NCBI GenBank assembly: GCA_022822135.1
Contig: JAJECH010000025.1
Location: 124,001-188,000 of the forward strand
Direction of reading: 5' to 3'
From: Pseudomonadales bacterium
GTDB taxonomy: Bacteria; Pseudomonadota; Gammaproteobacteria; Pseudomonadales; Azotimanducaceae
DNA length: 64,000 nucleotides
The notes beneath the pieces are model-generated. The model was not told the origin of the DNA. It was given only the letters and a program-made list of their open reading frames with translations, and did not search any database. Positions within the stretch are counted from its first letter, which is position 1, and each line of letters starts with the position of its first letter. Both the position numbers and the translations under genes were made by a program. Positions 40,591 through 57,473 of this stretch are shown piece by piece.

Positions 40591-41157
40591 GTGTTCGAAA
40601 ATCCGTTCGATTCATTCCATAACGCTGTTGCTGAAGCGAAAGAGGAGCGAGAGCAGCTCGACAGACTGCTGACGATATCCACTCCTCGAGAACGGTCTCT
40701 CGTCGTCCTCATCAGCATAACGATCGTTGCCTTCGCAGCATGGCTCTTCTTCGGGCAGATTACGCACACTTTTGCAGTAGATGGCACGCTTACGATTCCT
40801 GAAGGAACCTCTCAAACGTCGAATGAAACGACTCAATTAGAGGTACTTGTACAAAGCGGATGGATCACGAACAAAGACACGTCGCAGATTTCTGTAGATC
40901 TTCCGGCCACGATCGAAATCAGCTTGTCAGATGGAGATAGCGCTGTGATTAGCGGCAAGGTCGCTTCGATTAATGCAGTGCATGTTATGGGAGAGTCGGA
41001 GTCATCACAAACACCAATCGCCTTATCCCTATACAAGATCGGTTTAGCGTTGAGCGCAGAAATTGATCTATCTGCTTTAAGTGACAGAAACTGCCGCGTA
41101 GTTTTCCTTGTAGGTACGAGGACCCCGATATCTCTCTTCGGAATGAGACGGTCCTAA
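40591..41157 (+). CDS. Shortened HlyD-like NHLM export adaptor
   Basis: 188 aa from GTG. Residues 1-35 are cytoplasmic and charged, with RLLTISTPRERSLVVLISIT leading into one membrane helix (about 37-56), like the start of NHLM-system HlyD proteins. The C-terminal part (VQSGWITNKDTSQISVDLPA, IGLALSAEID) resembles the distal barrel part of such adaptors. Full-length family members are around twice as long; the coiled-coil hairpin and lipoyl halves are missing or reduced. It is 1 bp from the C39 exporter, so it most likely acts with it. Identification rests mainly on layout and the N-terminus. Confidence 0.7.
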   Translation: MFENPFDSFHNAVAEAKEEREQLDRLLTISTPRERSLVVLISITIVAFAAWLFFGQITHTFAVDGTLTIPEGTSQTSNETTQLEVLVQSGWITNKDTSQISVDLPATIEISLSDGDSAVISGKVASINAVHVMGESESSQTPIALSLYKIGLALSAEIDLSALSDRNCRVVFLVGTRTPISLFGMRRS

Positions 41158-41158
41158 G

Positions 41159-43369
41159 ATGGCACCCCGCACCTCTAACGGGGGCAGCGAAAAACCCGTA
41201 TCTAGGCGCGTAAAGCACAAGATCTCGACACCAATTTTGTTGCAGATGCATGCGACCGAATGCGGCGCAGCGTGCCTAGGCACGGTCCTAGGGTTCTTCG
41301 GTCTCTGGGTACCTCTCACCGAATTGCGAGAAAAATGCGAGGTGAGTCGGGATGGGAGTAGCGCCGCAAGCATTTTGCGCGCTGCAAGGCACTATGGGCT
41401 AGAGTGTGGTGGACTAAGCCTACGCGCCGAGTCCCTAAAGCTACTTCAGCTGCCATTGATTTTGTTTTGGCAATTTAGCCATTTCGTCGTGCTTGAAGGC
41501 TACGATGAACATTACTTCTATATCAACGATCCGGCCACCGGTCGCAGGAGAGTGACCATAGAGGAATTCAATAAGGCATACAGCAGTATCGCTCTCCGTC
41601 TAAGTCCTGGCGCTGATTTCAAACCCGGTGGCGAGCGACCGAGTTTGCTGGGTCAACTGAAAACGCTGCTTACCGGTTCGTGGCGCGTCCTGATTGGAGT
41701 AATCGCTTGTGGGTTGATGCTGTCGCTACTAGCGCTAGTAGTGCCAACGTCTCTGAGTTTCTTTGTAGATAGTGTTCTCGACAATCGAGGCACCGGAATC
41801 GGATTGGTAGGCGTTCTATTAGGTGCGGGTACGCTAGTCTATATCTTGGCTCTACTCAAACATAGGTTCCTAAAACGACTCGCGGTAAGGATTTCCGTGA
41901 TTGGCTACGATCGGGGATTCTCTCGAATGCTACGTCTACCGGTCGAGTTCTTCTACCATCGGCTGGTAGGTGACCTCACAGATCGAGTATCGTCAATCGA
42001 CCGAATCGCGAAGAACCTCACTGAGCGATTTCTTGTACTCATCATTGATTTGACGATGAGTCTTGTCTTACTAATCGCCATGTTCCTCTACGACTATACC
42101 CTCACGCTCATTGTGCTTTTATTAGCCGTCCTGCATGCGGTGCTCGCACATTTTCTTAGTAAGGTTCGAGCGGTTCGAACACAGGCAATGAGACGCGAAC
42201 AAGGTCTCTTAATCGGAGTCGGCATGCAAATGTTGAGTCATGCCGACAACCTGCGTATGACAGGATCCGATGACCGGTTTTACTCTCGCTGGAGCGGTCA
42301 ACAAGCTCGCGAGTTGCAGACTCGACAGCTTTATTCGGAACTCGTCTCGATCAATACAGCCATCCCGGGGCTGATCGCGATGCTACGCGCTGCAATCGTT
42401 CTCGGTATCGGAGCAAGTCTGGTCATAGCGGGTCATATGACCTTGGGAACGCTCGTCGGGTTCTATATATTGGCAGAGATGTTTCTAACTCCGATCGGCA
42501 GATTTCTTGAGTTCGCCGATGAACGTCAAACCCTCGAAACCGATTTACAGCGTCTCGACGACATATCCAAAACGCCTGAAGATCCTGTTTTTAGTCGTCG
42601 CAGTCCTGGTTCTGAGTCAATTCCGACTCTCAACGGTCGCTTACAGCTAACCGGTCACCTTGAACTTCGAGACGTCACTTTCGGATATAACCGGAATCGT
42701 CCGCCACTCATAAGCAACTTCAACCTGACCGTCAAACCGGGTCAACGGGTCGCGGTGGTCGGTCCGAGTGGCTCGGGTAAATCGACGTTGGCACGTTTGG
42801 TATCTGGAATGTACCAACCTTGGTCGGGGCAGATTCTCTTTGATGGTTACTTGCGAGACGAAGTTCCAGAAGATGTGCTGCGTCGCTCCATATCGATGGT
42901 AGATCAAGAGGTAGTTCTCTTCTCTGCTTCGCTTCGCGACAACATCACGCTTTGGAATCCAGCAGTACCGGATGAGGCAATTTTCGCGGCGACTCGAGAT
43001 GCGTGCATACACGACGAAATCTTGGTAAGACATGACGGGTATGCGACGCTAGTCGAAGAAGGGGGCGCAAATTTCAGCGGCGGTCAAAGACAACGATTAG
43101 AAATCGCTCGCGCATTGGTCGGTAATCCAACACTCATCATCTTGGACGAAGCAACTAGCGCTTTGGATGCCGCTACAGAGGAAGAGGTCGACGAGGCATT
43201 ACGTCGGCGAGGGGTTAGCTGTCTGATCGTAGCGCATCGCCTAAGCACAGTGCGCGATTGCGATGAGATCATCGTACTCGACAAAGGTGTTGAGGTCCAA
43301 CGAGGTTCGCATGACGAGTTGATAGCGGACGAGACCGGCACTTACTACAAGCTAGTCAGGTCGGGGTGA
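41159..43369 (+). CDS. NHLM-type bacteriocin exporter 1: C39 peptidase-ABC transporter
   Basis: 736 aa. N-terminal C39 peptidase: nucleophile Cys35 in TECGAACLGTVLGFFG, His108 in SHFVVLEGY and Asp124 in INDPATG. Then a six-helix ABC membrane domain (about 165-450) and an ATPase with [26 protein letters not shown] and LIILDEATSALD. Such PCAT proteins cut leaders after a double-Gly-like site and export the core. The matching site here is the Ala-Gly of the LCCCW precursor. Overlaps the next gene by 4 bp (ATGA form). Confidence 0.95.
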   Translation: MAPRTSNGGSEKPVSRRVKHKISTPILLQMHATECGAACLGTVLGFFGLWVPLTELREKCEVSRDGSSAASILRAARHYGLECGGLSLRAESLKLLQLPLILFWQFSHFVVLEGYDEHYFYINDPATGRRRVTIEEFNKAYSSIALRLSPGADFKPGGERPSLLGQLKTLLTGSWRVLIGVIACGLMLSLLALVVPTSLSFFVDSVLDNRGTGIGLVGVLLGAGTLVYILALLKHRFLKRLAVRISVIGYDRGFSRMLRLPVEFFYHRLVGDLTDRVSSIDRIAKNLTERFLVLIIDLTMSLVLLIAMFLYDYTLTLIVLLLAVLHAVLAHFLSKVRAVRTQAMRREQGLLIGVGMQMLSHADNLRMTGSDDRFYSRWSGQQARELQTRQLYSELVSINTAIPGLIAMLRAAIVLGIGASLVIAGHMTLGTLVGFYILAEMFLTPIGRFLEFADERQTLETDLQRLDDISKTPEDPVFSRRSPGSESIPTLNGRLQLTGHLELRDVTFGYNRNRPPLISNFNLTVKPGQRVAVVGPSGSGKSTLARLVSGMYQPWSGQILFDGYLRDEVPEDVLRRSISMVDQEVVLFSASLRDNITLWNPAVPDEAIFAATRDACIHDEILVRHDGYATLVEEGGANFSGGQRQRLEIARALVGNPTLIILDEATSALDAATEEEVDEALRRRGVSCLIVAHRLSTVRDCDEIIVLDKGVEVQRGSHDELIADETGTYYKLVRSG

Positions 43370-46305
43370 TGTCGAGTTCCCAATCGCAATTTGCTTCGAT
43401 CGCTGACCTCGCAGCTCGGCTCGGAGAGCCGACCCCATGCGCAGGTAACTTACCGGTTGAACTCGATGATCCAGACAGTGTCTGGTATATCGATAGCGGT
43501 TCTGTCAATCTCTTCCTCGTCGAGTTTGAAAACGGATCAGAGCGCGCAGCGCCGCAGCATCTGCTGACTCGCGAAGCAGGCGCGATATTGCCCGGAGTCA
43601 CGCCTGACGTTCAAGATGAAGATACCACGCTTAGCATCGTCGCGAAGGGTTCCCCAGGTACGCTCCTTCAGCGAATTCCGACATCCTCGTTGACAGAAAT
43701 GCGTCCATCAGAAGTGGCGGAACAGATTGACTCGTGGGTGCTTGAGATCACCCATAAACTCTCTCGATATGTAAGTCGCCAACCTCGACCGACGGCACTT
43801 GCCGCGCCTGGTCAAACACGATCCTATGAACCATGCATACTCTCGGTTCGCCGCGGCGTCGTATGGGTTTCGCAACCTCCACGTGGCGCCAGTCTGTTCA
43901 TGGATGTGATCGATCCAATAGAGCACCCACCGACTAAAGAATGCAGTGACGCCGCAATTCCGTTAACGCATGCAAGCTGGCTCTCACTATTAGATGAAAT
44001 AACTTTTACGGAGGTTTCAACTGAAGCATTGGTAGAGCAGGAGCGACTCCTGCCGTCCCTCGATGCTTTTCACACAATCGCTTTCGCACTTGAGCGTCTA
44101 AATCGTCAGCTAGCCGTAGTCGACGATGCCAACCTCGAACGAGCGCGTACCACCAGTCGCCGCACCGCGGAAAAAGCCGCTAGGCAACGGCTCTTCAACA
44201 TTTATGACCTGCCCATTGATCGGGACTCAAGCGTCGAGGACCGAGCTCTGGGAGATGCCCTCGAGCTTGTAGGAGAACATCAAGGAATCAAATTCAATAT
44301 TCCGACGCGATCCGGTTCAACAGATTCTCCGGTCGGTCTCGTTGACGTTCTTGATGCGTCAGGTGTACGAGCAAGACGTGTGAAACTAAAAACTGAGGAC
44401 AATTGGTGGCGTGGCGATAGCAACGCCATGCTAGCGTTCCGTCGTGAAGATAGCCGACCTGTTGCGTTGCTACCAAGTACGTTCGGTCGCTATCGGCAAG
44501 TCGATCCCGTGAACAAGCGCAGTGTTCGAATGAATGCTAGTCGAGCCGTCGAACTCCTGGACGAAGCGTGGTTGTTTTATCCACCGTTGCCTTCTGGTAA
44601 CGTTGAATCATCCGATCTCTTGAAAATCGCGTTCCACGGATCGTCGGCAGACTTACTTAGGCTGGTTCTTGCAGGACTACCTGGCGGTCTGATTAAGCTA
44701 CTACCTGCACTCGCTCTAGGCTTCGCGACCAATCACATCATCACGGGTGGCGCGGTCGGCGTCCTATATGTACTAGCTGTATCCCTTGGTGGATTTGGAC
44801 TTCTGGCTGCGCTTTTGCACGTGTATCAAAACACGGCGATGATGAGACTAGAAGGACGTTCAGCATCGCGCCTTGAAGCTGCCTTTTGGGACCGCCTCAT
44901 GCGTTTGCCTCCGAGTGTTCTGCACCGGCATCCATCCGGTGACTTGGCAATGTCGGGCATGACATTCCAGAACCTACGCGACGGGATGCAAGGTGTGGTC
45001 GCGGACAGTTTGCTATCCATCATTTTCTTGCTACCTGTATTCGCGGTAGTCTTTTTCTACGACAAGACTCTCGGCTTAGTTACGTTGAGCTTTAGCCTTG
45101 CCAGTGTAGGGGTCACATTCGTGCTTGGGTTACGTCAGATTGCACCCTACGGTCGCATGATTAGCGCAGTGCGGCGTGTATCCGGCAGATTGTTTCAGAT
45201 CATAAGCGGCATCAGCAAACTTCGAGTAGAGAATGCGGAAGGTTCAGCATTCGATATCTGGGCACGCGATTACCGCGAGCAAAAACGTGCCGAACTCGAA
45301 CTAAGTTTGCTCGAAGGGCACGCCCGTGCGTTCGGAACAGCGCTGCCGTTTTTTTCTGCTGGCGTCATACTCTACGCCGTCTTAACGCAAGGAGACCGAA
45401 CCGTCCCGATCGGCGACTTTCTGGTCGTGTATACCGTCTTTCTTACGTTTCAACATGCGATTACCCGACTTGGAGAATCGTTCGGATCCGTTGCTGGAAT
45501 GCTCCCTGCCTTTCGGCAAATGCGGCCGCTCCTCAGTGCAATTCCCGATTCGGAATCCGAAGGTGATTCAGTCGAATACTTAAGCGGCGATATCCTGTTT
45601 GACCACGTATCGTTTCGATACGATCCAGAAGGTCCATTGGTCCTAGAGAACGTGAGCATTCAAGCACACCCAGGAGAATTCGTCGCGATCGCGGGGGAAT
45701 CTGGTGCTGGGAAAAGCACGTTGTTCCGCCTCGCATTGGGACTCGACCGTCCAACAGCTGGCGCTGTGTACTACGACGGGCGCGATTTAAGACACCTGAA
45801 TCTGAAACAGCTGCGCAGGAAAATAGGCGCTGTACCTCAATCGGTCGGACTGCATCCTCAAGATCTGTGGGACAACCTCGTCAGTCATCATCAGGACGCT
45901 AACACTGATGAAGTGTGGCGAGCGGCTCGAATTGCAGAAATTGAAGACGAGATCAAGAACATGCCGATGGGCATGATGACGATGGTTGGAACGAGTGGGG
46001 CTGTGTTATCAGGAGGGGAAAGTCAACGGATCACAATCGCACGCTCCGTCATGGGCAGCCCCAAGATCATGCTCTTCGACGAAGCAACGAATTGGCTCGA
46101 CAACGAAAATCAAGCCGAGGTCATGCGGAATCTGACGACGTTAACATCGACTAGACTCGTTATCGCTCATCGCCTGTCTACTTTGGAACAAGCAGATCGT
46201 ATCTACGTGCTGCAGGGCGGAAAGGTCGTACAAAGCGGTTCATTCAACTCACTTCTGGAGGTTGATGGCGTTTTTAAAGATCTGGTAAGACGCCAGTTAG
46301 CATAG
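43366..46305 (+). CDS. NHLM-type bacteriocin exporter 2: ABC transporter with long N-terminal domain
   Basis: 979 aa. About 400 N-terminal residues form a poorly conserved regulatory region (cyclic-nucleotide-binding-like in the family, not clearly readable here), then a membrane domain (about 420-690) and an ATPase with AGESGAGKSTLFRL, LSGGESQRITIARSV and IMLFDEATNWLD. No C39 peptidase. This is the standard second ABC protein of NHLM systems and probably forms a heterodimer with the upstream exporter. The D-loop reads NWLD rather than SALD, as in this family. Confidence 0.93.
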   Translation: MMSSSQSQFASIADLAARLGEPTPCAGNLPVELDDPDSVWYIDSGSVNLFLVEFENGSERAAPQHLLTREAGAILPGVTPDVQDEDTTLSIVAKGSPGTLLQRIPTSSLTEMRPSEVAEQIDSWVLEITHKLSRYVSRQPRPTALAAPGQTRSYEPCILSVRRGVVWVSQPPRGASLFMDVIDPIEHPPTKECSDAAIPLTHASWLSLLDEITFTEVSTEALVEQERLLPSLDAFHTIAFALERLNRQLAVVDDANLERARTTSRRTAEKAARQRLFNIYDLPIDRDSSVEDRALGDALELVGEHQGIKFNIPTRSGSTDSPVGLVDVLDASGVRARRVKLKTEDNWWRGDSNAMLAFRREDSRPVALLPSTFGRYRQVDPVNKRSVRMNASRAVELLDEAWLFYPPLPSGNVESSDLLKIAFHGSSADLLRLVLAGLPGGLIKLLPALALGFATNHIITGGAVGVLYVLAVSLGGFGLLAALLHVYQNTAMMRLEGRSASRLEAAFWDRLMRLPPSVLHRHPSGDLAMSGMTFQNLRDGMQGVVADSLLSIIFLLPVFAVVFFYDKTLGLVTLSFSLASVGVTFVLGLRQIAPYGRMISAVRRVSGRLFQIISGISKLRVENAEGSAFDIWARDYREQKRAELELSLLEGHARAFGTALPFFSAGVILYAVLTQGDRTVPIGDFLVVYTVFLTFQHAITRLGESFGSVAGMLPAFRQMRPLLSAIPDSESEGDSVEYLSGDILFDHVSFRYDPEGPLVLENVSIQAHPGEFVAIAGESGAGKSTLFRLALGLDRPTAGAVYYDGRDLRHLNLKQLRRKIGAVPQSVGLHPQDLWDNLVSHHQDANTDEVWRAARIAEIEDEIKNMPMGMMTMVGTSGAVLSGGESQRITIARSVMGSPKIMLFDEATNWLDNENQAEVMRNLTTLTSTRLVIAHRLSTLEQADRIYVLQGGKVVQSGSFNSLLEVDGVFKDLVRRQLA

Positions 46306-46397: not shown

Positions 46398-47696
46398 ATG
46401 TCGACACCCAACGACCTCCAAGAGATCCTGATTGCTAAGGCGCATGAAGACAGCTCCTTTCGTGAACGTCTAGTCGCTTCACCGAAGGTCACCATCGAAC
46501 AAGAATTAGGCATAAAACTCGAGAGCGATCACGAGATACGTGTCCATGACGAAACCTACTCTGTTACGCACCTGGTATTACCCCCAACTAGCAAGTACAC
46601 CAAGGCAGAACGGGAAGAAGCGAAGGCGGGGGTCGGATCTCTTGAGTTTCTTCGAAAAACACTGCACGATCCCGCGCCACCTTTGCGAACCGACGATGCA
46701 GTCTCAACAGTCCGCTTTCGCGCCCAGAACCGAACGGCACTTCTCGACGCAGGAAGGCAGCGTATCCAACGAGGTCTTGCCTTCATAGAGTCAACGCTGG
46801 ACGAAAACGGTGCGTGGCACTGTATTCGCTTCAATGTAGCGGATCCGGACATTCCGCGGCATTTCGAACGACCACCATTTATCTCCGCACTGTGCGTGCT
46901 TGCACTGGATTCCTCCAACGAAGAACGCGCGAAAGCCATATGTTCGCGTACGAAGGTATACCTCGTTAAGAGCATCGAATACCCAGGTTTGTGGCGCTAC
47001 TACCGTCATTTACCAAACGACCTCGATAGTACGACGCTTTGTTCACTTGTCGTTGATTCGCATCCGTGGATCTTGTTGGGTAGAAACATAGCCACGATCT
47101 TGGAGAATCGCGACACGGATGGTCGCTTCATGACGTGGGTGCACGAAAAAGACGAACCGAATGTTGTCGCACCTTTCCGAATTGAAGCTGATCCTGTGGT
47201 CAATGCGAACGCAATCGCCTATCTAGGTGATCGTCCTGAAACCAAACAAGCGCAGTCGTGGCTAATCGCGTCGATTACAGACGGAACTTTTTTAGGCGCA
47301 TCTAAGTGGTACCCAGATCCGCTGGCGGGGTTCTATGCGGTGTCACGAGCCATCGTTCGCACTCAAAGTGCCTTGGAAGAAATCCGACCTATTCTTGCGG
47401 ATCGAATACTTGAACAGCAAGACGATCACGGCCATTTCGGTAACAGTCTCCAGACCTCTCAAGCGGTCTCTGCACTCTACAATATTGGAATGCTCGAGAA
47501 AATCGATGCAGCGCAGCAATTGGAGACAATCATTGCAATGCAGAGAGAAGACGGTAGTTGGCCAGAGCTGCTTGCGTTCGGTGACCAAACGCTCAGTTGG
47601 GGCACGATTGGCCAGATTGGTCATGGTTCCGAAGCCGTGACCTCTGCCTTCTGTATTGAAGCACTTGAAAAACTCATTGAATTCTTGAATGCGTAA
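46398..47696 (+). CDS. NHLP leader fused to an alpha/alpha-toroid (terpene-cyclase-like) domain
   Basis: 432 aa. Residues 1-80 are an NHLP leader closely matching the LCCCW precursor at 55534: both share I-x2-KA/SA-x-D-x2-FR, PK-x-TI-x-QELGI and HL-x-LPP, and both have Ala-Gly at the same place (AKAG here, ISAG there). From about 115 a prenyltransferase/squalene-oxidase-type toroid follows, with repeats such as LDENGAWHC, QQDDHGHFG and REDGSWPE, and NDLDSTT (207-213), which resembles the class II cyclase DxDD motif but with Ser in the fourth place. Either an enzyme carrying a docking leader or a carrier of substrate; terpene cyclisation is not proven. Follows the exporters by 92 bp. Confidence 0.82.
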   Translation: MSTPNDLQEILIAKAHEDSSFRERLVASPKVTIEQELGIKLESDHEIRVHDETYSVTHLVLPPTSKYTKAEREEAKAGVGSLEFLRKTLHDPAPPLRTDDAVSTVRFRAQNRTALLDAGRQRIQRGLAFIESTLDENGAWHCIRFNVADPDIPRHFERPPFISALCVLALDSSNEERAKAICSRTKVYLVKSIEYPGLWRYYRHLPNDLDSTTLCSLVVDSHPWILLGRNIATILENRDTDGRFMTWVHEKDEPNVVAPFRIEADPVVNANAIAYLGDRPETKQAQSWLIASITDGTFLGASKWYPDPLAGFYAVSRAIVRTQSALEEIRPILADRILEQQDDHGHFGNSLQTSQAVSALYNIGMLEKIDAAQQLETIIAMQREDGSWPELLAFGDQTLSWGTIGQIGHGSEAVTSAFCIEALEKLIEFLNA

Positions 47697-47775: not shown

Positions 47776-50166
47776 ATGTCGGAAGCACCAGTCACTGAAA
47801 GTGACCTAGGTTCAAACGAAACAAGAACCGCAGAATACATCGAACCGTCGATTCTCAATGCGTTGCCGCATTACCTGCCGCTAGGCATCTTCCCGTTACT
47901 CTTACTCGCATTGATCTACGGAGGTTGGTGGCTGTTACCACCATTTCTCTTTATGAGTGTCGTAGGTCCCGCAGACAGGGTATTCGGACCAGACGGTCAC
48001 AACATGGATCCGAAGAGAACGCCTGAACGACGACTCCTCTGGCACAATCTTCCAGTATGGGCATGGGCTTTTCTCTGGCCGCCGACGCTCATTTTTGGAA
48101 TGTGGCAAATCCTCGTAGCAAATCCATTTGCGGTCTGGGAAGAGGTCATACTCGTCTTCCTTTTGACGATGGAAGCACAGGCTGTGTTCATGGTCGGTCA
48201 CGAGCTCGTCCATCGTCGCACTACCTGGGAACGTCGAATCGCCGAGTTCCTTCTCGCATCCGGGTCCTATCCTCAATATGCGACAGAACATGTATACATT
48301 CACCATGCTTTGGTCGGTACGCCAAACGACGTCGGATCCGCGCCGAAAGGCGAGAGTTTTTGGCACTACTTCCCAAAAGAAGTCGCAAGCAATCTAACGA
48401 ACTCTTGGCGCACTGCGCGGGATCGTCTGGCTCGGCGACACCAGCCAGTTTGGCATTACACCAACCCGTTCTGGCGCTATGGGATCGGGCTTCTATTCTG
48501 GTACGGCTTGGCCTTTTGGATGGGGGGAATCTGGGCAGTAATCGTGTTCGCGTTTCTTGGTTTAGGCTGCGTCTTCTCGATGAAGATCATCAACTATTGC
48601 CAACACTACGGCTTACGACGAGTGCGCTTACCAAATGGTCGTTGGGAAAAAGTGATGCCACGCCATTCATGGGATGCTGATTGGAAGTTCAGTAACTGGA
48701 TGTTTTTCAAAATGCAACGTCATTCAGATCACCATGCGATGGCAAGTCGTCACTATCCGTTACTTCAGGTACGGGGCGCAGATGAGTCGCCGCAGTTGCC
48801 AGGCACCTACAGCGACATGATGAACTTGGTGATTCGACCAAAGCGATGGTTTGAAAAAATGGATCCTATGGTGGATCAATGGCGTGATCATTTTTATCCC
48901 GAAATCGACGATTGGAGTGCTTACGACAGTCCGTTGGCTGCATCTCGACCTGAAGCGTTCGATGCAATCATCGAGATATTCGGTGCCGCACCGCGCCTCG
49001 CCAAGTGGATAGAAGGAAATCCAGAACTACTCGATACACTCCAAGATCGCGAATTTACAGATCTTGATCTTCCGAGAGGATTCGGACCGGATCTCGATTA
49101 CGAGTCCACGGCAAGACGTGGATTAACGCGACTCTATTGGACACACGAAATGAATGTCCAAGGAATGAAAGAGCAGATCGCGGAAATACCATCCACTAAC
49201 GCGAAGGAAACCGCGGAAGTTGTGCGCAATTGGTCAAACGACAAGGCTTTTCAAATCGGGATGCATGTGATTCGAAAGAATCTGACACCGTCCGAGGCTT
49301 CCACCGCACTGTCTAATCTCGCCGAAGCCGTGGTCTCATCTATCCTCTCATCCGTGGTCGCAGATGCCGCTGAGCGGGATGGACCAATTCAAGGAGGTGG
49401 AATCGCTGCGATATTTCTTGGAGATTTAGCTAGTAAGGAGGTCTATCCTGGTATTCCGGTAAATGTGATATTCATTCGAGATGAACAGGATTCACAAGAT
49501 ATCACCCGAATTGCTCGAGGTTTTCGAGAGTGCCTAGCCAATATGGCGAAAGAGAGTCTTCTATTTAGTCCAATTCCTCAAAGTGGGTTCTTATGTTCCA
49601 CGATATCTATAGCTGATCTCCCGGAATGCTGCAAGGATTTCGATACCCATGGGGTCGATCTCCTTACCAGGGCGCAGTGTGCATTTGAATGTGGAGATTC
49701 CGAAATCGGACGAAGATTCGAGAAGACTCGTCAGGAAGTAATTGCAGAGATCAAGACGGATAGATCCGTGCTCTCCAGCTTAAATTTGGAATACGAAGTG
49801 TTTCCCGAGTCTGGGGTTGCCTCCTATGTTCAAATGCGTGGCGGATTGAATGACATCGAGAGAACCGCGCGTATCCTGCAGTTAAGTAACGGCGATGCCG
49901 AGTATGACGTGCCATCGCCGACAGCAACATCTATCTTTCAAAACGGTGGATTTGAATCACTAGCTGACGTAGCGAGAACCTGGCGGACACTTCATGGAAT
50001 CCAAAATTTGGTGATCGAGGATGCAAATGACTTGCTCGAAGCCGGAACAAAGGTCAGATCGCTTGTCGCCCATGCGTGTGGGTATGACGATTTCGACGCG
50101 CTGAGAGCTATGGTTGAAGAATCAGCAGACCAAGTAATCCGTGATTCCGAGACGATCACCTCGTAA
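47776..50166 (+). CDS. AlkB-like di-iron membrane monooxygenase fused to a degenerate GlnE-like domain
   Basis: 796 aa. Residues about 25-360 are an integral membrane hydroxylase/desaturase: His motifs HELVH (142-146), HVYIHH (172-177), HSDHH (316-320), plus NYCQHYGL (273-280), the AlkB signature. Residues about 390-796 resemble the first half of glutamine synthetase adenylyltransferase: FGAAPRLAKWIEGNPELLD, LTPSEASTALSNLAEAVV, then the nucleotidyl-transfer segment IFLGDLASKEVYPGIPVNVI, where GlnE has G-x-LG-x2-E with SDIDL. Both catalytic Asp are replaced, so AMP transfer is unlikely and binding is more plausible. I know of no standard family with this fusion. It probably oxidises the cluster's peptide at the membrane. 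Confidence 0.82.
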   Translation: MSEAPVTESDLGSNETRTAEYIEPSILNALPHYLPLGIFPLLLLALIYGGWWLLPPFLFMSVVGPADRVFGPDGHNMDPKRTPERRLLWHNLPVWAWAFLWPPTLIFGMWQILVANPFAVWEEVILVFLLTMEAQAVFMVGHELVHRRTTWERRIAEFLLASGSYPQYATEHVYIHHALVGTPNDVGSAPKGESFWHYFPKEVASNLTNSWRTARDRLARRHQPVWHYTNPFWRYGIGLLFWYGLAFWMGGIWAVIVFAFLGLGCVFSMKIINYCQHYGLRRVRLPNGRWEKVMPRHSWDADWKFSNWMFFKMQRHSDHHAMASRHYPLLQVRGADESPQLPGTYSDMMNLVIRPKRWFEKMDPMVDQWRDHFYPEIDDWSAYDSPLAASRPEAFDAIIEIFGAAPRLAKWIEGNPELLDTLQDREFTDLDLPRGFGPDLDYESTARRGLTRLYWTHEMNVQGMKEQIAEIPSTNAKETAEVVRNWSNDKAFQIGMHVIRKNLTPSEASTALSNLAEAVVSSILSSVVADAAERDGPIQGGGIAAIFLGDLASKEVYPGIPVNVIFIRDEQDSQDITRIARGFRECLANMAKESLLFSPIPQSGFLCSTISIADLPECCKDFDTHGVDLLTRAQCAFECGDSEIGRRFEKTRQEVIAEIKTDRSVLSSLNLEYEVFPESGVASYVQMRGGLNDIERTARILQLSNGDAEYDVPSPTATSIFQNGGFESLADVARTWRTLHGIQNLVIEDANDLLEAGTKVRSLVAHACGYDDFDALRAMVEESADQVIRDSETITS

Positions 50167-50204
50167 ACACAGATCAGCCGTGTATTTCTGTATGGAATGC
50201 CTTA

Positions 50205-52520
50205 GTGCAAGAAACGGAAAACAATAACCGTCGCGGAATACTCATCAGAAGGGTACCCGAAGACGAGGGAGCGATCGATGTTCCCATCCTGACTCCACAT
50301 CTGCAATTTCGCGACATTGGTGAACAGCAGACTTTGCTGGTTTCAGAGACCTTCAATACGTTATTACACGGTCAACTGACCGCTGATCTATTACCGTTAC
50401 TTGATGGACAAAATCCGTTAAATGAAATAGCCGACAAACTCAAAGCCAAGTACACGGAAGACGCCATTCATAGCGCTGTTGCTTCGCTTGCAACCAAGGG
50501 TTATGTCGTATCTGCCGAATACACAATGGAACATTCGAAGGCAGCGTATTGGACAACCCTCGGCGCGTCACCTAAGGCAGTTGAAGAAACCCTACGTACA
50601 GCACGCGTTACAGTTCATGGTGATGACGGTAAACTCGCTGAACAGCTAAACGGCTCTGGCATCGAAATCACTGAAAGAAACTCACAACTCTCTGCTTACG
50701 TCTGCGCAGACTACCTAGAAGAACGATTCGAAACGGTAAATAAACGCCACTTAGATGAAGGTACGCCATGGCTCCTGGCACGCCCACGCGGAGTTCAACC
50801 CTTATTCGGACCAGTTTTCCACTCAGATGGCGAAGGACCTTGCTGGACATGCCTTGGTTATCGGCTACGGAATCACCAAGAGGTCCATAGCTTTCTGCGT
50901 AATTTCGCTGGTGATACCGGTGCATTTAGAGCTTTCGCGACAGAACCAGCGGTTCTCGAAGCGATCTATCGGTTGATAGCCGCCGAAGTCGTAAAGTGGT
51001 TGGTTCTTGGTAACGTCTCCCCTATTCATGCCCACGCGATCGCGATGAACACTCGGACGTTTGAAAGTTCACAACATTTGGTTACGCACCGACCACAGTG
51101 CCAAGCATGCGGAGACCCGGACGCGTATCGACCGGATCGAACCGCGGATCCCTTGAACCTGAGTTCGAGTCCTAAGCCTCATCGAAACAGTGGTGGCGCA
51201 CGATCAGTACCGCCCCAAGTTACGTTAGCGAAGTACAGACACCTTATTAGCCCGATCAGTGGTGTGATAACCTGGTTATCACGTACGACGGATGAAACTG
51301 ATCCTTGGCTTCATGTCTATTGGGCTGGTAGCAATCTCGGAATTAGAAGTCGCACACTTAGCTCGCTACGACGGAGCCTTCGTAGCAAAAGTGCCGGCAA
51401 AGGCAGTACACGCGAGCAGTCTGAAGTTAGTGCGCTGTGCGAAGCTGTGGAACGCTATTCAGGTGCATTTCACGGAGATGAAATCCGCGTACGAAATTGC
51501 TTCAGAGAGATGGCAGCAGGAGAGGAAGCAATCCATCCCAACGACGTGCAGCTTTTCAGCGATGATCAACTTGATAACGCACAAAGCATCAATTCGATGG
51601 GACACTTATATAACGTGGTTCCCCCTCGTCTCGACACGAACATTGAGATCGACTGGACGCCGGTCTGGTCACTAACACAGCGCCGACATCGATACTTGCT
51701 GACATCGATGCTTTACAGTATGCCCGCGGAACAACGAGGTCCATCTGATTTGGTAGCCGATTCCAATGGGTGTGCCGCTGGAAACACCATAGAGGAAGCA
51801 ATACTTCAAGGTTTCTACGAACTGGTCGAACGCGATGCGTTCGCTATTTGGTGGTACAACCATCTGCAAGTACCGGCGGTCGACCTAACCAGTTTCGACG
51901 ACGATTTCATTAATTCTGCGACGGATTACTACGCTCGCTACGACCGCGAACTATGGCTACTTGACGTTACTTCAGACTTGGGTATTCCGGCGTTCGTTGC
52001 GCTCTCCAATAGGCCTAACGCGACAACTGAGGACATTATTTATGGCGCCGGTGCTCATGCAGATCCTCGAATCGCAGCATTGCGAGCGATCTGTGAACTG
52101 AACCAGTGTCTTACTTGGCTACCGCGTCCTGAAAGCCGTGATGGACGACCAACAATCGATGATCCGTTAGCTCTGTGGTGGTGGAAAACCGCCCGACTCG
52201 ATGACTGCCGATGGCTAGCTCCCGAGGAAACCGCGAAGCCTCGTCTGGCTTCAGACTTTCAAGTGATTGAGTCTGAGGATTCACGTGAAGACGTTGAGTA
52301 TTGTCAAACGCTAGTTGAGAGCAAAGGTATGGAATTGCTAGTACTCGAGCAAACAAGACCAGACATCGAAATGCCCGTCGTTCGGGTGATCGTGCCGGGA
52401 ATGCGACATTTCTGGGCGAGATTCGCACCCGGTCGGTTGTACGATGTACCGGTTCGCATAGGCTATCAAGAACGTCCACTCAGCGAAGATGAGTTAAATC
52501 CCGCGCCTGTTATCGCGTAG
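50205..52520 (+). CDS. Fused ThiF-like/YcaO azoline cyclodehydratase
   Basis: 771 aa from GTG. The N-terminal half (about 1-330) is the leader-binding and E1-like partner, with four zinc cysteines (213, 216, 299, 302; CWTC and CQAC). The C-terminal half is YcaO: SAGKGSTREQSEVSALCEAV with ERYSG (from about 396), then NGCAAGNTIEEAILQGFYEL with VERDA, and a Pro-containing end (NPAPVIA). YcaO uses ATP to turn Cys, Ser or Thr of a peptide into azolines. The one obvious substrate in the cluster has three adjacent Cys. Fusion removes the need for a separate E1-like protein. Confidence 0.95.
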   Translation: MQETENNNRRGILIRRVPEDEGAIDVPILTPHLQFRDIGEQQTLLVSETFNTLLHGQLTADLLPLLDGQNPLNEIADKLKAKYTEDAIHSAVASLATKGYVVSAEYTMEHSKAAYWTTLGASPKAVEETLRTARVTVHGDDGKLAEQLNGSGIEITERNSQLSAYVCADYLEERFETVNKRHLDEGTPWLLARPRGVQPLFGPVFHSDGEGPCWTCLGYRLRNHQEVHSFLRNFAGDTGAFRAFATEPAVLEAIYRLIAAEVVKWLVLGNVSPIHAHAIAMNTRTFESSQHLVTHRPQCQACGDPDAYRPDRTADPLNLSSSPKPHRNSGGARSVPPQVTLAKYRHLISPISGVITWLSRTTDETDPWLHVYWAGSNLGIRSRTLSSLRRSLRSKSAGKGSTREQSEVSALCEAVERYSGAFHGDEIRVRNCFREMAAGEEAIHPNDVQLFSDDQLDNAQSINSMGHLYNVVPPRLDTNIEIDWTPVWSLTQRRHRYLLTSMLYSMPAEQRGPSDLVADSNGCAAGNTIEEAILQGFYELVERDAFAIWWYNHLQVPAVDLTSFDDDFINSATDYYARYDRELWLLDVTSDLGIPAFVALSNRPNATTEDIIYGAGAHADPRIAALRAICELNQCLTWLPRPESRDGRPTIDDPLALWWWKTARLDDCRWLAPEETAKPRLASDFQVIESEDSREDVEYCQTLVESKGMELLVLEQTRPDIEMPVVRVIVPGMRHFWARFAPGRLYDVPVRIGYQERPLSEDELNPAPVIA

Positions 52521-52529
52521 GGACGATAT

Positions 52530-53648
52530 ATGGAAATCGACGAAGCGATTAACATCACGCAAGATCACCTAGCCGATGAAGGCGGCACCATGGGTGATTT
52601 GCTTGATAAGTTCCGAGATCGTGTTTCCCCTGTTCTTATTGGGGAGGCCGAGTGGGCACAGATTCTCGCTCGCGCCGGAACACTGCCGATAACCATGGCT
52701 GCGCTCCCATTCGGTTTTGAAATACCTTTACACGACCCTTCACCAAGGGCAGACCTTGGCGTTTCATTAGCTAGCGGAACTCGAACCGCCACGTTTTTTG
52801 AAGACCGAGCGCGGAACGAACGTGCAGACGGAACGGCAAAAGCGATTATGCGACTATTCAGTCAGATTGACGCTGAAGAATCGGAACTACAAGAAATTGT
52901 TGGTCGCAAGTTAATGTTGGAATACGACATTGGATCTGCAGAGGAACGTGATTCCAACATCCCAGGAATGTTCTTACGACCGGGCGAACGCCCGATTATC
53001 GGCGCGACTAATCAAGTGAACGATGTCAATTTGGTCGTTGACGCGTTGGTTTCCGCGGTCGACTGGGAGACGAATGAAAACGAACGTATCAACGTCCAAC
53101 GAACCTATTTAGCTCAGCCTGCTAACACTCGAATGGATTCATTTGGAGTTTTTCCGTCGAGGACAAGGTCCGTTCGCCTTGCGATCATGGGGTTTGAGTC
53201 TCAGCAGGAGATTTGTAAATATCTTGAAAACATCGACTGGCCAGGCGACGTAACTGCTATTGACGACACCATTTCGAGATTCCAAAAACGAGTTTCGATT
53301 GCCAGAACTGGTGCGAATATCGATGTTCAAGAAGACGGTGTTGGACCAACGCTAGGTCTCACTTTGATCGTCAAGCAAAGGTATACGAAAGATTCACGAT
53401 ACTGGCTCGACGGATTAACCGATTGGAATCCATTTTTAGACGCCTTGGGTCATGAAGAGCTCGTTAGCCAAGACAAACTAAAGGAACTTGCCGGTTGGGT
53501 CTCCAAACCAACGATGCTATTTGCGAAATCTGGACGTTATGTCATGTTGAGAGGTATTCACCACATAAAACTGGTCGTAGAGGAAAATCGGCTCACGAAG
53601 GCGAAGGCGTACGTATTTATGGTCCTTTCAGCCGCACTTTCGACCTAA
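52530..53648 (+). CDS. Unrecognised RiPP-cluster protein
   Basis: 372 aa, soluble, no signal peptide or membrane helix. It starts 9 bp after the YcaO gene, so it is very probably co-translated. Noticeable blocks: LPFGFEIPLHDPSPRADLGV (residues about 60-79), FLRPGERPIIGATNQVNDVN, and a C-terminal part with YWLDGLTDWNPFLDALG. It lacks nitroreductase features expected of a SagB/McbC azoline dehydrogenase, and no nucleotide-binding motif is visible. It may be an auxiliary maturation factor; function is unknown. Confidence 0.75.
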   Translation: MEIDEAINITQDHLADEGGTMGDLLDKFRDRVSPVLIGEAEWAQILARAGTLPITMAALPFGFEIPLHDPSPRADLGVSLASGTRTATFFEDRARNERADGTAKAIMRLFSQIDAEESELQEIVGRKLMLEYDIGSAEERDSNIPGMFLRPGERPIIGATNQVNDVNLVVDALVSAVDWETNENERINVQRTYLAQPANTRMDSFGVFPSRTRSVRLAIMGFESQQEICKYLENIDWPGDVTAIDDTISRFQKRVSIARTGANIDVQEDGVGPTLGLTLIVKQRYTKDSRYWLDGLTDWNPFLDALGHEELVSQDKLKELAGWVSKPTMLFAKSGRYVMLRGIHHIKLVVEENRLTKAKAYVFMVLSAALST

Positions 53649-54021
53649 TCTAAATCAGACACTGAACTAAGTCCCAAGCTTTTACATGTAGGTGTCGACT
53701 CACTCTCGTAGTGAATCGCAGGTACGCGATTCTCTTACGGCATTCCTCGAATAACTTGCCTATCGCTCTGAAACCACTGATTACGTCGACCATGTCAGTA
53801 TTACCTTCAAAGCACCCGTGGAGTGCCTCCCACTCGCGAAACACCCGCTTGGTATTCGTCAGCCGTACCGTGCGAAATTCGCTGAAAGAGCTTCTACGGG
53901 GGCGTCACAACCATACAGAAATATCGTACATTGCACCTTATATCCCCCTCCTGTGCGACAGGGCTTTACGGGGCGTGGGGTAAGCTACGATTTATTGGAA
54001 TTGTCGTAAAAGCGAGTTTCC
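53649..54021. other. Intergenic region before the Rieske gene
   Basis: 373 bp. Overlapping ORFs (plus 53711-53983, minus 53650-53844 and others) have no recognisable domains or leader-like sequence and look accidental. No second precursor was found here. Confidence 0.5.
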
Positions 54022-55203
54022 GTGAATCAATCAGAGCAACAACGCATTCTGAAAACACTAAACGAGCACCTCGCAAACGATACGACCGCAGATGCTGGCG
54101 GCATCATGCGGGCACCGATGTCGGATTTCACGTGCTCAAAACTCTTTGAACAGGAAAGAGATTTCTTCTTTCGATCTGTACCGCTCTGTATGGGGCTTTC
54201 GTCGGAACTTCCAGAACCCAATACCTATTGGTCGGACACTTCGACAGGAATCCCGATATTGATGGTTCGTGATGCAGACGGGCGATTTCAAGCTTACGCC
54301 AATGTTTGCAGACATCGAGGAAGTCAAGTCGTTCCAGAAGGGCGAGGTGAAAAGGACCGCTTTTCCTGTCCCTTTCACGCATGGACATACAAAAACGACG
54401 GTACATTACTGACCATTAACAAGAGTCATCATTTCGTCAATGCTTCGACACTGGATCTGCCTCTTATCGCATTACCGTCAGCCGAACTGCATGGCTCCCT
54501 GTGGGTCAGACCTACCCAAGGTAGTCCTATCGATGAGGACGAATGCCTCTGCGGACTTGAAGACGACCTCTTGCACTGGAACTTAGCGAATCACTCCTAT
54601 GCAGGAACGCAGATCATTGATGCTCGAATGAATTGGAAACTAGTGGTCGACTCATTCGGTGAAATCTACCACCTAACCGTTCTACACGCAGACACCTTGG
54701 CGAGCGAGGTACTCGGAAATGTGCAAACGTTCGACCGATTCGACACGAACCTCCGAATGGTTTTCGCCAATCCCAAGTTCAACCTCGTGCGAATGCTCAT
54801 GCCTAACTCGACTACTTGGCCTTACAAACAAATTACGACTACCGTGTATTTCTTATACCCAAACGTCATCATGTTGGTCGACGCATTTGGTGTCGATTTC
54901 ATACGAATTCTCCCACTCGAAGACTCACCTTCGAAATCCCGAACCATTCACACTTGGTACATCGAGCCGAAGATGCAGAAGCGTTTCGAGCAGAACAACA
55001 TGACTTATGAAGACAGATTAGCGAGATTCAGAGATTTCGTCGAGAAAGAGGATTACACAATAGGTGCCGACATCCAAGTAAATGCCGAGTGCGGAATACA
55101 GAAAGAGATCGTACTCGGACGGAACGAACCGTCTCTACAGCATTTCCACAACGTGCATCGTGCGGGTATGGGTCGTGAACAGCTACAGACGATGGATATA
55201 TGA
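54022..55203 (+). CDS. Rieske non-haem iron oxygenase, alpha-subunit type
   Basis: 393 aa from GTG. Rieske 2Fe-2S site: Cys96-x-His98 (CRHRG) and Cys116-x2-His119 (CPFH). Mononuclear iron site in DSFGEIYHLTVLH (His217, His222), as in ring-hydroxylating oxygenases. The usual electron-transfer partners are not next to it. It lies within the RiPP cluster, between the YcaO operon and the precursor, so hydroxylation or oxidative tailoring of the peptide (or azoline oxidation) is likely, but its substrate is unproven. Confidence 0.9.
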   Translation: MNQSEQQRILKTLNEHLANDTTADAGGIMRAPMSDFTCSKLFEQERDFFFRSVPLCMGLSSELPEPNTYWSDTSTGIPILMVRDADGRFQAYANVCRHRGSQVVPEGRGEKDRFSCPFHAWTYKNDGTLLTINKSHHFVNASTLDLPLIALPSAELHGSLWVRPTQGSPIDEDECLCGLEDDLLHWNLANHSYAGTQIIDARMNWKLVVDSFGEIYHLTVLHADTLASEVLGNVQTFDRFDTNLRMVFANPKFNLVRMLMPNSTTWPYKQITTTVYFLYPNVIMLVDAFGVDFIRILPLEDSPSKSRTIHTWYIEPKMQKRFEQNNMTYEDRLARFRDFVEKEDYTIGADIQVNAECGIQKEIVLGRNEPSLQHFHNVHRAGMGREQLQTMDI

Positions 55204-55533
55204 CGAATTAGACGATGAAAACGACAACGTAAAAATCGAAAACCGCTAGGCTATATGCGGCTCAAAGTTCATAGCCAAGAGCAACCTTGCAACTCCATTG
55301 ACGAGGCTTAGGACGACTAATTTAGCCGCCAAGTTAACGTGCGTATTCAGCGATGTATACGACTAAACCAATATCAGTTTGTCGGGCGCACCAATCCAAT
55401 CACGTGAACGCCCGATTTAAAAGAATAGAAAAATAGCCGTCCCCAATGAAGGGGACAACTAGACGTGCGTTAACTGAACCCGGTAACTTGCGATCTGTGG
55501 CAATCTAGCCGACTGATCACAAAACTCGATGGT
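55204..55533. other. Convergent intergenic region Rieske gene / precursor
   Basis: 330 bp with no supported gene. Holds two hairpins: one (55439-55456) is a good terminator for the precursor; another inverted repeat, TCGGGCG/CGCCCGA at 55382-55415, with a long loop, may end the Rieske transcript. Confidence 0.55.
55427..55456 (-). terminator. Terminator after the precursor gene
   Basis: On the minus strand, stem GTCCCC/GGGGAC with a 6-nt loop (55439-55456), followed within a few bases by a U-rich tract (plus-strand A-run 55427-55433). It lies about 80 nt past the precursor stop. Confidence 0.6.
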
Positions 55534-55785
55534 TTACCAGCAGCAACAAAGCCCCGCTGAGATGGCTTCGAGTTGCTCTTCCGTGATATTCGGATCCGGG
55601 GGAAGAGCTAGATGCACGGTCTGCATGTCGCTCTCGTGAATCTTGATCGTCATCGACTCAGGAATCGTGATACCCAATTCCTGACTGATAGTCGTTTTCG
55701 GATCGGAAAGAAGCTGCTGTCGAAAATCGGTATCCAACGCCGATTTTTCGACAATTTGCTTCAACATGTCGTCGCCACTTTGCAT
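55534..55785 (-). CDS. NHLP-type RiPP precursor with core LCCCW
   Basis: 83 aa. The ATG at 55785 has a strong AGGAG ribosome site; an upstream in-frame ATG (55866) gives 27 extra residues that fit no leader. Residues 1-78 are an NHLP leader (FRQQLLSDPKTTISQELGI, MQTVHLALPP, ITEEQLEAISAG). The likely C39 cut follows Gly78, leaving only LCCCW. Three consecutive Cys suit the YcaO enzyme, and the terminal Trp suits the divergent halogenase. It is the only convincing free precursor in the cluster and lies opposite to the modification genes. Five residues is a very short core. Confidence 0.93.
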   Translation of the reverse strand: MQSGDDMLKQIVEKSALDTDFRQQLLSDPKTTISQELGITIPESMTIKIHESDMQTVHLALPPDPNITEEQLEAISAGLCCCW

Positions 55786-56198
55786 CTTGATCTCCTCTTT
55801 AACCACAAACCGTCCGTCCAAAGCCACTTGGTCGAACTTGCATCCTGTAGTAGCGTAAACTACCACCGAACGTAAAGTTTACACCAAATTAGGAGATTTT
55901 CTACGTTTTAACGACTCAAAAAAGTAATCGACCGAGTACCGAATTTGACGTCGCTTCGCGCCAAGACACTTTCTTATATACGACAAAACATAGAGCGCGT
56001 ACACAGGAAGGAATCTCTTGGCTCAAGTTCGGAAATCAGTCTCTCTGCTGAGGAATTACGTACATAATGCACGGAGTGTCGTATAAAGTTCAGCATTGCA
56101 TTTAGTCCGTCGAAAGGGCGATCGCAATTCCCACGGATTTCGCGTGACGCGCAAAATCGAATAGGGTTTACTGGAGCCACCCGTGCAAGTTTCTCAAG
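55786..56198. other. Divergent regulatory region precursor / halogenase
   Basis: 413 bp. It must carry promoters for the precursor (minus) and the halogenase (plus). A minus-strand ORF at 55974-56207 has no recognisable domain and is not called. Confidence 0.55.
55855..55882. promoter_or_regulatory. Inverted GTAAAC repeat upstream of the precursor
   Basis: GTAAAC (55855-55860) and its complement GTTTAC (55877-55882), with a third GTAAA at 55872, lie about 70-95 bp before the precursor start. The spacing could suit a regulator site near the promoter. Evidence is weak, since the repeats are short. Confidence 0.25.
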
Positions 56199-57473
56199 AT
56201 GTTTCAACCAGGTAGAGCTTCTTTAGAGAGGATCGCTGTCGTTGGACGCGGGACCGCTGGATCCCTCGCTGCTGCCAGCATTGCACGCGCACTCCCAGAT
56301 CACGAATACGAGCTACATCACATTTATGACTCCCGGATCCCGGTCATTGGGGTCGGTGAAGGTAGTTGGCCGAGTTTAGTTTCGCAACTCCATGAATTGA
56401 CCGATTTGCCTCATGAGACGATCCAACGGCGCCTGAACGGGACTCGAAAGTACGGCGTTTCATTCGAGGATTGGGGTCGTCGCAATCAACATTTCATTCA
56501 CTTTTTCACCCCGCCACAAGTGTCATATGCCTATCACCTATCGGCTGACTTACTGGCGGGCATACTCGAAGAGGCAACAAAAGCACAACACATCGATGCC
56601 AATGTACTAAGAATTAGGAGAGTTGATGACGGCGCCGTAATTGATTTCGATGGACGATCATCTGAGCGTTATGACCTAGTGTTCGACGCTCGCGGTTTTC
56701 CGAAGGAAGTCGTACCGGAACAGCATATCGATATTTCCTTCATACCTACCAATACGGCGGTCATTCGACGCTGTCCAGCGATTATCGAACCGCAACACGA
56801 CGGGCCGGTAGTTGAACACACCTACACACGAGCCGTTGCCCGACCTCACGGTTGGGTATTCGTGATCCCTCTAACTGCACATACTTCCTATGGTTACATT
56901 TTCAATCGTGACATAACGAGCCTCACTGACGTTGAATCGGATTTCGATTCATTTCTTTCGGCCGATCAGGTGTCAGAGTTCGAACAGCGTGCCGTCCTTC
57001 AATTTCCTAATTTCGTACACCGCCAGATGTACGACGGCGTTATCGCACGCGTAGGGAACGCCGCAGCTTTTATGGAACCTTTAGAAGCGACCGCCATCGT
57101 ATCCGCACAGATGCAGATCGGAATGGTTTTACAAATGAGGATCAATCGTTCGATCGATCTCTTGGAAAAAGACACTCCCGTGGTTAATCGATTTCTTGTT
57201 AATAACGTGCTTACCTATGGATTGTTTGTCGGATGGCACTACAGTTGCGGGTCCACGTACGACAGCGAGTTCTGGAGAAAAGCGCGTGACAACTATTGGC
57301 CGACTCACAAGGATGTAGCGAATCCAAGAAGGGTTGATTGTTCCGCTCTTGAGAAATTCGACGCCTTACTTAAGTTGCTAAAGCAGCCAGTTATCGACAA
57401 AGAAGATTGGGGTCAAAACGCACCGCTTCCACTTAGCAGCTATGCCCAGATTTCTGAAGGGCTCGGCGTTTAG
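56199..57473 (+). CDS. Flavin-dependent tryptophan-halogenase-like enzyme
   Basis: 424 aa. FAD motif VVGRGTAG (14-21), GVGEGSWPSL (51-60), candidate catalytic Lys84 in NGTRKYGVSFEDW, a variant of the WxWxIP motif (GWVFVIPL, 218-225), and GNAAAFMEPLEATAI near the C-terminus. These are features of flavin-dependent halogenases, though the protein is shorter than free-Trp halogenases (about 500-540 aa). Some relatives act on Trp within peptides. The neighbouring divergent precursor ends in Trp, so halogenation of the core is a strong guess. Oxygenase activity without halide cannot be excluded. No flavin reductase gene is nearby. Confidence 0.87.
   Translation: MFQPGRASLERIAVVGRGTAGSLAAASIARALPDHEYELHHIYDSRIPVIGVGEGSWPSLVSQLHELTDLPHETIQRRLNGTRKYGVSFEDWGRRNQHFIHFFTPPQVSYAYHLSADLLAGILEEATKAQHIDANVLRIRRVDDGAVIDFDGRSSERYDLVFDARGFPKEVVPEQHIDISFIPTNTAVIRRCPAIIEPQHDGPVVEHTYTRAVARPHGWVFVIPLTAHTSYGYIFNRDITSLTDVESDFDSFLSADQVSEFEQRAVLQFPNFVHRQMYDGVIARVGNAAAFMEPLEATAIVSAQMQIGMVLQMRINRSIDLLEKDTPVVNRFLVNNVLTYGLFVGWHYSCGSTYDSEFWRKARDNYWPTHKDVANPRRVDCSALEKFDALLKLLKQPVIDKEDWGQNAPLPLSSYAQISEGLGV

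Follow-up and report, generated by a model that had tools for sequence, protein, structure and literature searches.

The gene cluster at positions 40591–57473 of a 64,000-nucleotide stretch of DNA from a Pseudomonadales bacterium of the family Azotimanducaceae (below, the window: bases 124001–188000 of contig 9 in a genome of 3.75 Mb and 63 contigs) is, with a probability that we put at about 0.9, a member of the srp family (sponge-derived RiPP proteusins; RiPP, ribosomally synthesised and post-translationally modified peptide), and would perform its thiazoline-forming and bromination steps. The assignment is made because the core peptide, the leader motif, and the halogenase landmarks match those of SrpE and SrpI in identical numbering. 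All ten genes are found among the open reading frames (ORFs) of the window in the order and at the coordinates proposed by an initial annotation of this DNA, the precursor being on the minus strand; profile matches agree with its reading as a RiPP cluster with a precursor of the nitrile hydratase leader peptide (NHLP) type, an NHLM-type exporter, a YcaO enzyme, a halogenase, and oxygenases of the Rieske and AlkB types. That annotation also called the cluster undescribed, which does not hold, as the core, the leader motif, and the halogenase landmarks belong to sponge srp clusters (PMC10858898, PMC10286304); srp clusters are also cited, and srp-like ones recovered, in PMC9426513.

The SrpE-type proteusin precursor (55534–55785, minus strand; TIGR03793, 71 bits, cut-off 50.9) starts at an ATG with AGGAG in front, has 83 amino acids, and ends in AISAGLCCCW. 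It carries NITEEQL at positions 66–72, A77–G78, and the core L79-C-C-C-W83; the LxxxxL leader helix (67–72) is present as I67-x4-L72, with Ile replacing Leu67. SrpE is described with the core LCCCW and NLTEEQL at 66–72; its three Cys are converted into thiazolines by SrpC, a YcaO enzyme, and SrpI, guided by the leader NLTEEQL 66–72, brominates the terminal Trp at position 6 of the indole (PMC10858898; PMC10286304). SrpI requires Lys84 and has P-Q-Q-V-S at 105–109 (PMC10858898). The SrpI-type flavin-dependent peptidyl Trp halogenase of the window (56199–57473, plus strand; 424 amino acids; Trp_halogenase, 162 bits) is intact and has, in numbering identical to that of SrpI, K84 and P-P-Q-V-S at 105–109, as well as GRGTAG at 16 and WVFVIP at 219; an alignment of 43 halogenases shows K84 in every row and the consensus PqqVs at 105–109. 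The SrpC-type protein (50205–52520, plus strand), the sole YcaO match in the genome, consists of an RRE-like winged helix, a TIGR03882 region, and a SagD/YcaO cyclodehydratase (YcaO 307, TIGR03604 266, TIGR03882 132 bits; the last two exceed the curated cut-offs). Its initial designation as a ThiF–YcaO fusion is consistent with the description of the TIGR03882 region as weakly ThiF-like (PMC2887384). Thiazoline formation and bromination at Trp C6, reported for SrpC and SrpI, are predicted for the window by orthology; the halogenation foreseen for the product would thus, by analogy with SrpI, more exactly be bromination at this position.

To collect related loci, 84,980 species genomes were scanned with the alignment of the AlkB–GlnE fusion of the cluster as bait. 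This yielded 162 related stretches, which may include plain AlkB; the best 80 were kept and, together with the window, form the set of 81 loci, all with AlkB–GlnE by design. YcaO is present in 79 of these, the terpene-cyclase-like protein described below (toroid) in 73, a 372-amino-acid (372-aa) protein in 73, the second (ABC2) and first (ABC1) exporter genes in 65 and 60, a HlyD-like gene (at least 40 bits) in 57, a halogenase within the locus in 51, and a Rieske gene (at least 150 bits) in nine. The eight loci with no match to the 372-aa protein stop inside or just past AlkB or YcaO. For the eight with no toroid, five genomes were searched, four of which have one elsewhere. Precursors below 60 bits (L037, L039) were dropped from a consensus. 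Of 69 precursors, 64 end in GLCCCW, one in LCCCGW, and one in LSCCW, and three second precursors end in MCCCGI. The latter (L100 and L101, 18266–18538, plus strand; L103, 18465–18737, plus strand) are NHLP precursors on the strand opposite to the LCCCW precursor.

A close toroid is found in 16 of 18 genomes of the genus, including that of the window; of the remaining two, G012 has a distant toroid only, and G001 (78% complete) has none. The cluster is also present in G023, from another genus within the family. In 15 relatives the order of the toroid, AlkB, YcaO, and 372-aa genes is kept, and in 14 of the 15 an LCCCW precursor is present, the exception (L032) stopping at a contig end. Co-occurrence of the genes with an NHLP–CCCW precursor in relatives, named in the initial annotation as its own check, is thus strongly borne out, and due to the retention of the toroid in congeners and of the gene order in relatives the cluster is not a chance assembly. 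In G009 (L028/L112) about 9 kb of extra DNA separates the toroid and AlkB–GlnE genes. In G013 (L035/L113) the toroid, YcaO, ABC2, and 372-aa genes are fragmented, by either decay or assembly errors, and AlkB–GlnE and the precursor are whole.

A tree of 74 YcaO rows has the labels Pseudomonadota, Acidobacteriota, Nitrospinota, Nitrospirota, Gemmatimonadota, Latescibacterota, Myxococcota, and Binatota; these are taken from submitters' titles, and bins may contain foreign contigs. The non-proteobacterial rows are scattered in several places among the proteobacterial ones, a pattern such as inter-phylum transfer would give. All 80 loci of the scan carry titles starting with "MAG"; the title series COS, RHO, IRC, and SB06xx are presumably sponge metagenomes. 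In genomes sampled from the class and phylum, three of the genes are rare: the 372-aa profile (E ≤ 1e-10) finds the own genome alone among 398, AlkB–GlnE (E ≤ 1e-85) finds it and G236 alone among 369, and the toroid (E ≤ 1e-6) finds it and G650 alone among 398.

The toroid (46398–47696, plus strand) is new here and is predicted to consist of a class II terpene-cyclase-like domain fused, by a conserved linker, to an NHLP leader-like domain (amino acids 1–78; TIGR03793, 45 bits, cut-off 51). Both halves of this fusion, and both of the AlkB–GlnE fusion, are matched by profiles, as initially proposed. Beyond the NHLP domain the profile search gives a weak squalene-cyclase-like region; past residue 78 there are matches to drimenol synthase (two entries, 6e-7 and 4e-6) and to a squalene–hopene-type cyclase (0.0016). 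Rab geranylgeranyltransferase is matched with E 0.015, worse than both, and the toroid was hence rejected as a protein prenyltransferase. In drimenol synthase D331, D333, and Y427 are reported to be essential, Y427 activating D333, which donates the proton (PMC12365925). The HMMER alignment places these residues at D208, D210 (D208-L-D210-S), and Y305 of the toroid; the numbering was set via an Asp-to-Asn change in the 9m7d chain, assumed to be the D333N of that paper. None of the three varies among the 69 toroids that could be aligned, out of 73 found (L067, L068, L112, and L113 were too short and were left out), and the triad recurs in two distant NHLP-associated toroids, as DADST in L036 and DTDDT in L037, each with Tyr. 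The cores of L036 and L037 also contain Trp.

Among the 66 loci with a Trp core a toroid was found for 65 (61 in the locus, four elsewhere in the genome), and an SrpI-type halogenase for 61: 42 whole and five truncated by the end of the locus, with 14 more at other places in the genome. The five others (L069, L072, L077, L090, L097) all have the toroid, and one of them, L069, lies in a 4.3-Mb chromosome record; a strict coupling of Trp and halogenase was hence rejected. In a genus of another family of the same class, AlkB–GlnE is present in five of six genomes, and the four readable precursors end without Trp (LCCC, LCCC, LCCCL, LTCCGC). They neighbour YcaO, AlkB–GlnE, the 372-aa gene, and MMPL and, unless the contig ends, exporter genes; toroid and SrpI-type halogenase were each found in none of the six genomes. 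In two of these genomes there are extra AlkB–GlnE copies with no YcaO or precursor in the fetched stretch.

The AlkB–GlnE protein (47776–50166, plus strand) comprises an AlkB-type membrane di-iron oxygenase (amino acids ~50–365), matching alkane monooxygenase 8f6t at 1e-63, and a GlnE-like region (~460–735), with the C-terminal part matching GlnE 3k7d at 7e-9. His at positions 142, 146, 172, 176, 177, 277, 316, 319, and 320, which we take to be the di-iron ligands of AlkB, are kept at 95% or more of 82 rows. The AlkB signature NYxEHYGL is here NYxQHYGL, with Gln in 13 of 13 aligned rows. In the GlnE-like region the aligned rows keep no Asp pair where, as we presume, the nucleotidyltransferase motif would lie; since this acidic pair is absent, an active GlnE adenylyltransferase was rejected, and the region is apparently non-catalytic and may be taken as a binding domain. 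In six loci (L100, L101, L103, L102, L108, L110) the fusion aligns only to about residue 650–678 of 796. Because clusters with Trp-less cores retain AlkB, we infer that this enzyme oxidises something common to all cores.

The 372-aa protein (52530–53648, plus strand) has no known family or fold in Pfam, NCBIfam, and PDB profile searches, where the weak matches are chance-like; a search with TIGR04445 gave no match in 388 genomes, nor in 14 controls, and is uninformative. Relatives are found in other RiPP clusters, hence the protein is not srp-specific. In a profile comparison it aligns (336 columns, E 3e-14, 21% identity) with the opening part of a plasmid protein from Pseudanabaena; this relative ends in a 2OG-Fe(II) oxygenase domain and sits in a Nif11-leader RiPP cluster. 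Further relatives adjoin NHLP precursors and a PoyD-type epimerase in Nostoc, NHLP precursors in Azospirillum, and a Nif11 precursor and a radical SAM methyltransferase in Acaryochloris. In G125 (L037) a relative lies directly before the toroid gene, and in G012 (L036) one lies in two pieces near the toroid; L036 and L037 are other NHLP clusters pairing a distant toroid with a distant 372-aa protein, with cores ending in AGDHIVW and VCWSNCSDMGP. A sulfotransferase-like ORF, recognised by eye, adjoins the toroid of L037. Proteins of about 600 amino acids beside relatives in L147 and L149 give a weak toroid signal (hmmsearch E 0.02 and 0.016), and the one in L147 compares to the toroid with an hhalign probability of 7.5. 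Invariant residues of the wide 372-aa set include E50, E122, D124, R211, H344, K346, and Y360 (first-row numbering). One Trp-less cluster, with the core LTCCGC, has three tandem copies (L136, 2502–5933, minus strand). With a relative fused to an oxygenase and AlkB as its constant neighbour, the 372-aa protein may be the partner of an oxygenase; its association with toroids, together with the architecture of NctPC, in which a prenyltransferase joined to a class II cyclase puts a geranylgeranyl (C20) group onto Trp and then cyclises it (PMC13290415), would instead suggest a prenyltransferase.

Given the Asp/Tyr triad, the contrast between the clades, and NctPC, the toroid would act at the Trp end of the peptide. 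We tentatively propose, at less than even odds, that this NHLP-tethered enzyme of the class II terpene-cyclase type builds rings there. NctPC lends plausibility to such an action but takes away some of its novelty, as it provides a precedent for a class II cyclase on a RiPP (PMC13290415). In the plainer form of this proposal, the toroid would protonate the thiazoline–indole end itself. In the bold form, the 372-aa protein would be an unrecognised peptide prenyltransferase, AlkB would oxidise the prenyl chain, and the toroid would close the ring, the widespread srp product being, instead of a linear peptide, a brominated indole-terpenoid tri-thiazoline.

A terpene–peptide hybrid of this kind, with a prenyl group put on Trp, cyclised by the toroid, and oxidised by AlkB, is possible, if doubtful. 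It agrees with the activity of NctPC and with the nearest plasmid relative of the toroid (hhalign E 1.5e-26, 300 columns), which belongs to a Nostoc protein of 1218 amino acids that also contains a UbiA-type prenyltransferase-like region; moreover, lipid-transport genes flank 34 of the 81 loci (MMPL 28, LolA-like 22, either 34). Neither of the two is found beside the window cluster, however, and no prenyltransferase is recognised in the cluster by profile, nor among the recurrent neighbours, the only ones annotated, for which Pfam gave MMPL, LolA-like, weak DUF1302-like, RND pump, sodium symporter, and enolase-like families. The last candidate, the 372-aa protein, matches no prenyltransferase in Pfam, NCBIfam (distant relatives included), or PDB profiles and is retained in the Trp-less clusters.

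Several points weigh against the srp assignment and the action of the toroid at Trp. The srp link is drawn from landmarks described in later papers, not from full gene lists or sequences. The ABC and HlyD-like genes score under the curated NHLM cut-offs. The YcaO of the window ends in PxPVIA, and the PxPxP tail of azoline-forming YcaOs is seen in none of 73 tails. Bromination is not obligatory across the family, since five Trp-core loci lie in genomes with no SrpI-type halogenase. The link between toroid and Trp is essentially one clade contrast, in incomplete genomes: in the Trp-less genus, G348 is 76% complete, and G346 lacks AlkB–GlnE as well. Finally, the search for a toroid in the genome of L079 found none, despite the Trp core of this locus.

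That the product is chlorinated in this organism, or that the cluster is silent, appears unlikely: the Trp-core loci with no SrpI-type halogenase (5/66) speak for it, but the halogenase of the window is intact with the SrpI landmarks, and SrpI reportedly does not chlorinate (PMC12615548). A little less likely still is the toroid as a large cargo, in which the C39 exporter would cut off the leader domain and the terpene-cyclase-like part would be secreted. Gly78, at the place where the precursor would be cut, is kept in 69 of 69 toroids, and the Ala77–Gly78 of the window toroid is the same as in the precursor and thus compatible with secretion. Across the family, however, 45 of 69 toroids carry Thr at residue 77, against 11 of 69 with Ala or Gly, and in 67 of 69 Arg takes the place of the docking-helix Leu at position 72; the stretch past Gly78 is strongly conserved, and the catalytic triad is invariant, so that secreted cargo was rejected as unlikely. 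The NHLP domain of the toroid would be a leader with no docking Leu and mostly with no cleavage dipeptide, and we read it as a tether. An undescribed RiPP class that is only superficially srp-like is highly improbable: no publication was found joining RiPP, YcaO, and alkane monooxygenase, or halogenase, Rieske, and nitrile hydratase leader peptide, but the core pentapeptide, the leader motif, and the halogenase landmarks equal those of SrpE and SrpI in identical numbering.

The remaining genes are the following. The Rieske non-haem iron oxygenase (54022–55203, plus strand; Rieske and Ring_hydroxyl_A domains) had been counted as part of the pathway; as a Rieske gene occurs in nine of the 81 loci, with weaker matches in two further ones, the enzyme is rather an accessory, which would add an oxidation in a minority of clusters, that of the window included. 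Eight of the nine Rieske loci have no MMPL and LolA-like genes in the fetched flanks. Where such flanks occur (e.g., L044, L046, L049, L050, L058, L078, L081, L114, L119, and others), an MMPL exporter with a sterol-sensing-type domain lies upstream, and a LolA-like protein and a weakly DUF1302-like protein of ~420 amino acids lie downstream. NHLM-type exporter 1 (41159–43369, plus strand; Peptidase_C39 and ABC_tran; TIGR03796, 837 bits, cut-off 853) has a C39 leader peptidase and an ABC domain, and NHLM-type exporter 2 (43366–46305, plus strand; TIGR03797, 658 bits, cut-off 709) is an ABC protein with no peptidase. The gene first called an adaptor (40591–41157, plus strand) is indeed HlyD-like; it is a stub of 188 amino acids, which covers positions 6–60 only of the 421-position NHLM HlyD model (TIGR03794, 22 bits, cut-off 156).

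Directly upstream of the cluster lies a gene for a Fur-family regulator (39889–40308, minus strand), and due to this adjacency a Fur-controlled metallophore may be considered; read by eye, positions 40300–40600 of the window hold no clear Fur box. Elsewhere in the window, a group I intron (Rfam RF00028, 73 bits; 2171–2424) lies within a tRNA-Gln(CUG) gene (2110–2449, minus strand), which aragorn detects only with the intron option; the gene is flanked by those of a sigma-70 factor (89–2047, plus strand) and a class II aminoacyl-tRNA synthetase (2499–3875, minus strand).

Comparison with known systems places the cluster closest to the srp clusters (SrpE/SrpC/SrpI; PMC10858898, PMC10286304, PMC12615548), with which it shares the LCCCW core, the NHLP leader with its (I/L)-T-E-E-Q-L helix, YcaO, and a Trp halogenase with K84 and the 105–109 loop; the Rieske gene is a feature of the window cluster. 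With NctPC (PMC13290415) the likeness is a class II terpene-cyclase-type domain at the Trp of a ribosomal peptide, but NctPC is fused to an alpha-beta-beta-alpha prenyltransferase, and the toroid to NHLP, with no prenyltransferase recognised nearby. The HAD-TCbeta drimenol synthase (PMC12365925) is matched over 222 positions of the profile, with correspondence of the triad; unlike it, the toroid has no HAD phosphatase, carries an NHLP domain instead, and stands in a RiPP context. The mpr cluster (MprE/MprC/MprD) is similar in its NHLP leader with L(x)4L and its RRE–YcaO azoline synthase, and differs in having ten precursors and a flavin azoline oxidase, as against one precursor and no such oxidase seen in the window cluster (PMC12455567). 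MibH, the Trp chlorinase of NAI-107, is likewise a flavin-dependent peptidyl Trp halogenase of a RiPP; it needs the leader removed and chlorinates, whereas SrpI needs the leader and brominates (PMC10858898; PMC10286304). The AlkB part resembles alkane 1-monooxygenase (8f6t, 8sbb) in the 1e-63 match and in the histidines presumed to be ligands, and differs in Gln for Glu within NYxEHYGL and in the fused GlnE-like domain.

Taken in order, the proposed pathway would start from the 83-amino-acid precursor, with its folded NHLP leader and the five-residue core LCCCW. YcaO would turn the three core Cys into thiazolines, and the halogenase would dock on the LxxxxL helix of the leader and brominate C6 of the C-terminal Trp. 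The AlkB-type di-iron enzyme would oxidise a part shared by all cores, and the 372-aa protein, being kept with AlkB and fused to another oxygenase in one distant relative, might perhaps serve as its substrate-presenting partner. The toroid would apply Asp/Tyr acid catalysis at the Trp end, on the indole–thiazoline or on a prenyl group placed there, and the Rieske enzyme would add an oxidation. The C39 peptidase of the exporter would cut after Ala77–Gly78 and release Leu-(thiazoline)3-Br-Trp (computed base mass, [M+H]+ 651.088 with 79Br and 653.086 with 81Br; 667.083 with one additional O) or a further modified form.

The product of the srp clusters is said to have been called cryptic in the primary srp paper (JACS 2021, Nguyen et al.). 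The srp papers cited here, in the parts available to us, describe two srp enzymes and no final product (PMC10858898, PMC10286304, PMC12615548), and several conserved proteins of the set have no role assigned in them. The comparison shows SrpC and SrpI to be only part of a larger conserved gene set, and the steps of AlkB and the toroid become testable, the Trp-less clusters being a natural control. What would be new here, if true, is the tether made of a leader domain, its connection with a brominated tri-thiazoline core, and the occurrence of the set under eight phylum labels.

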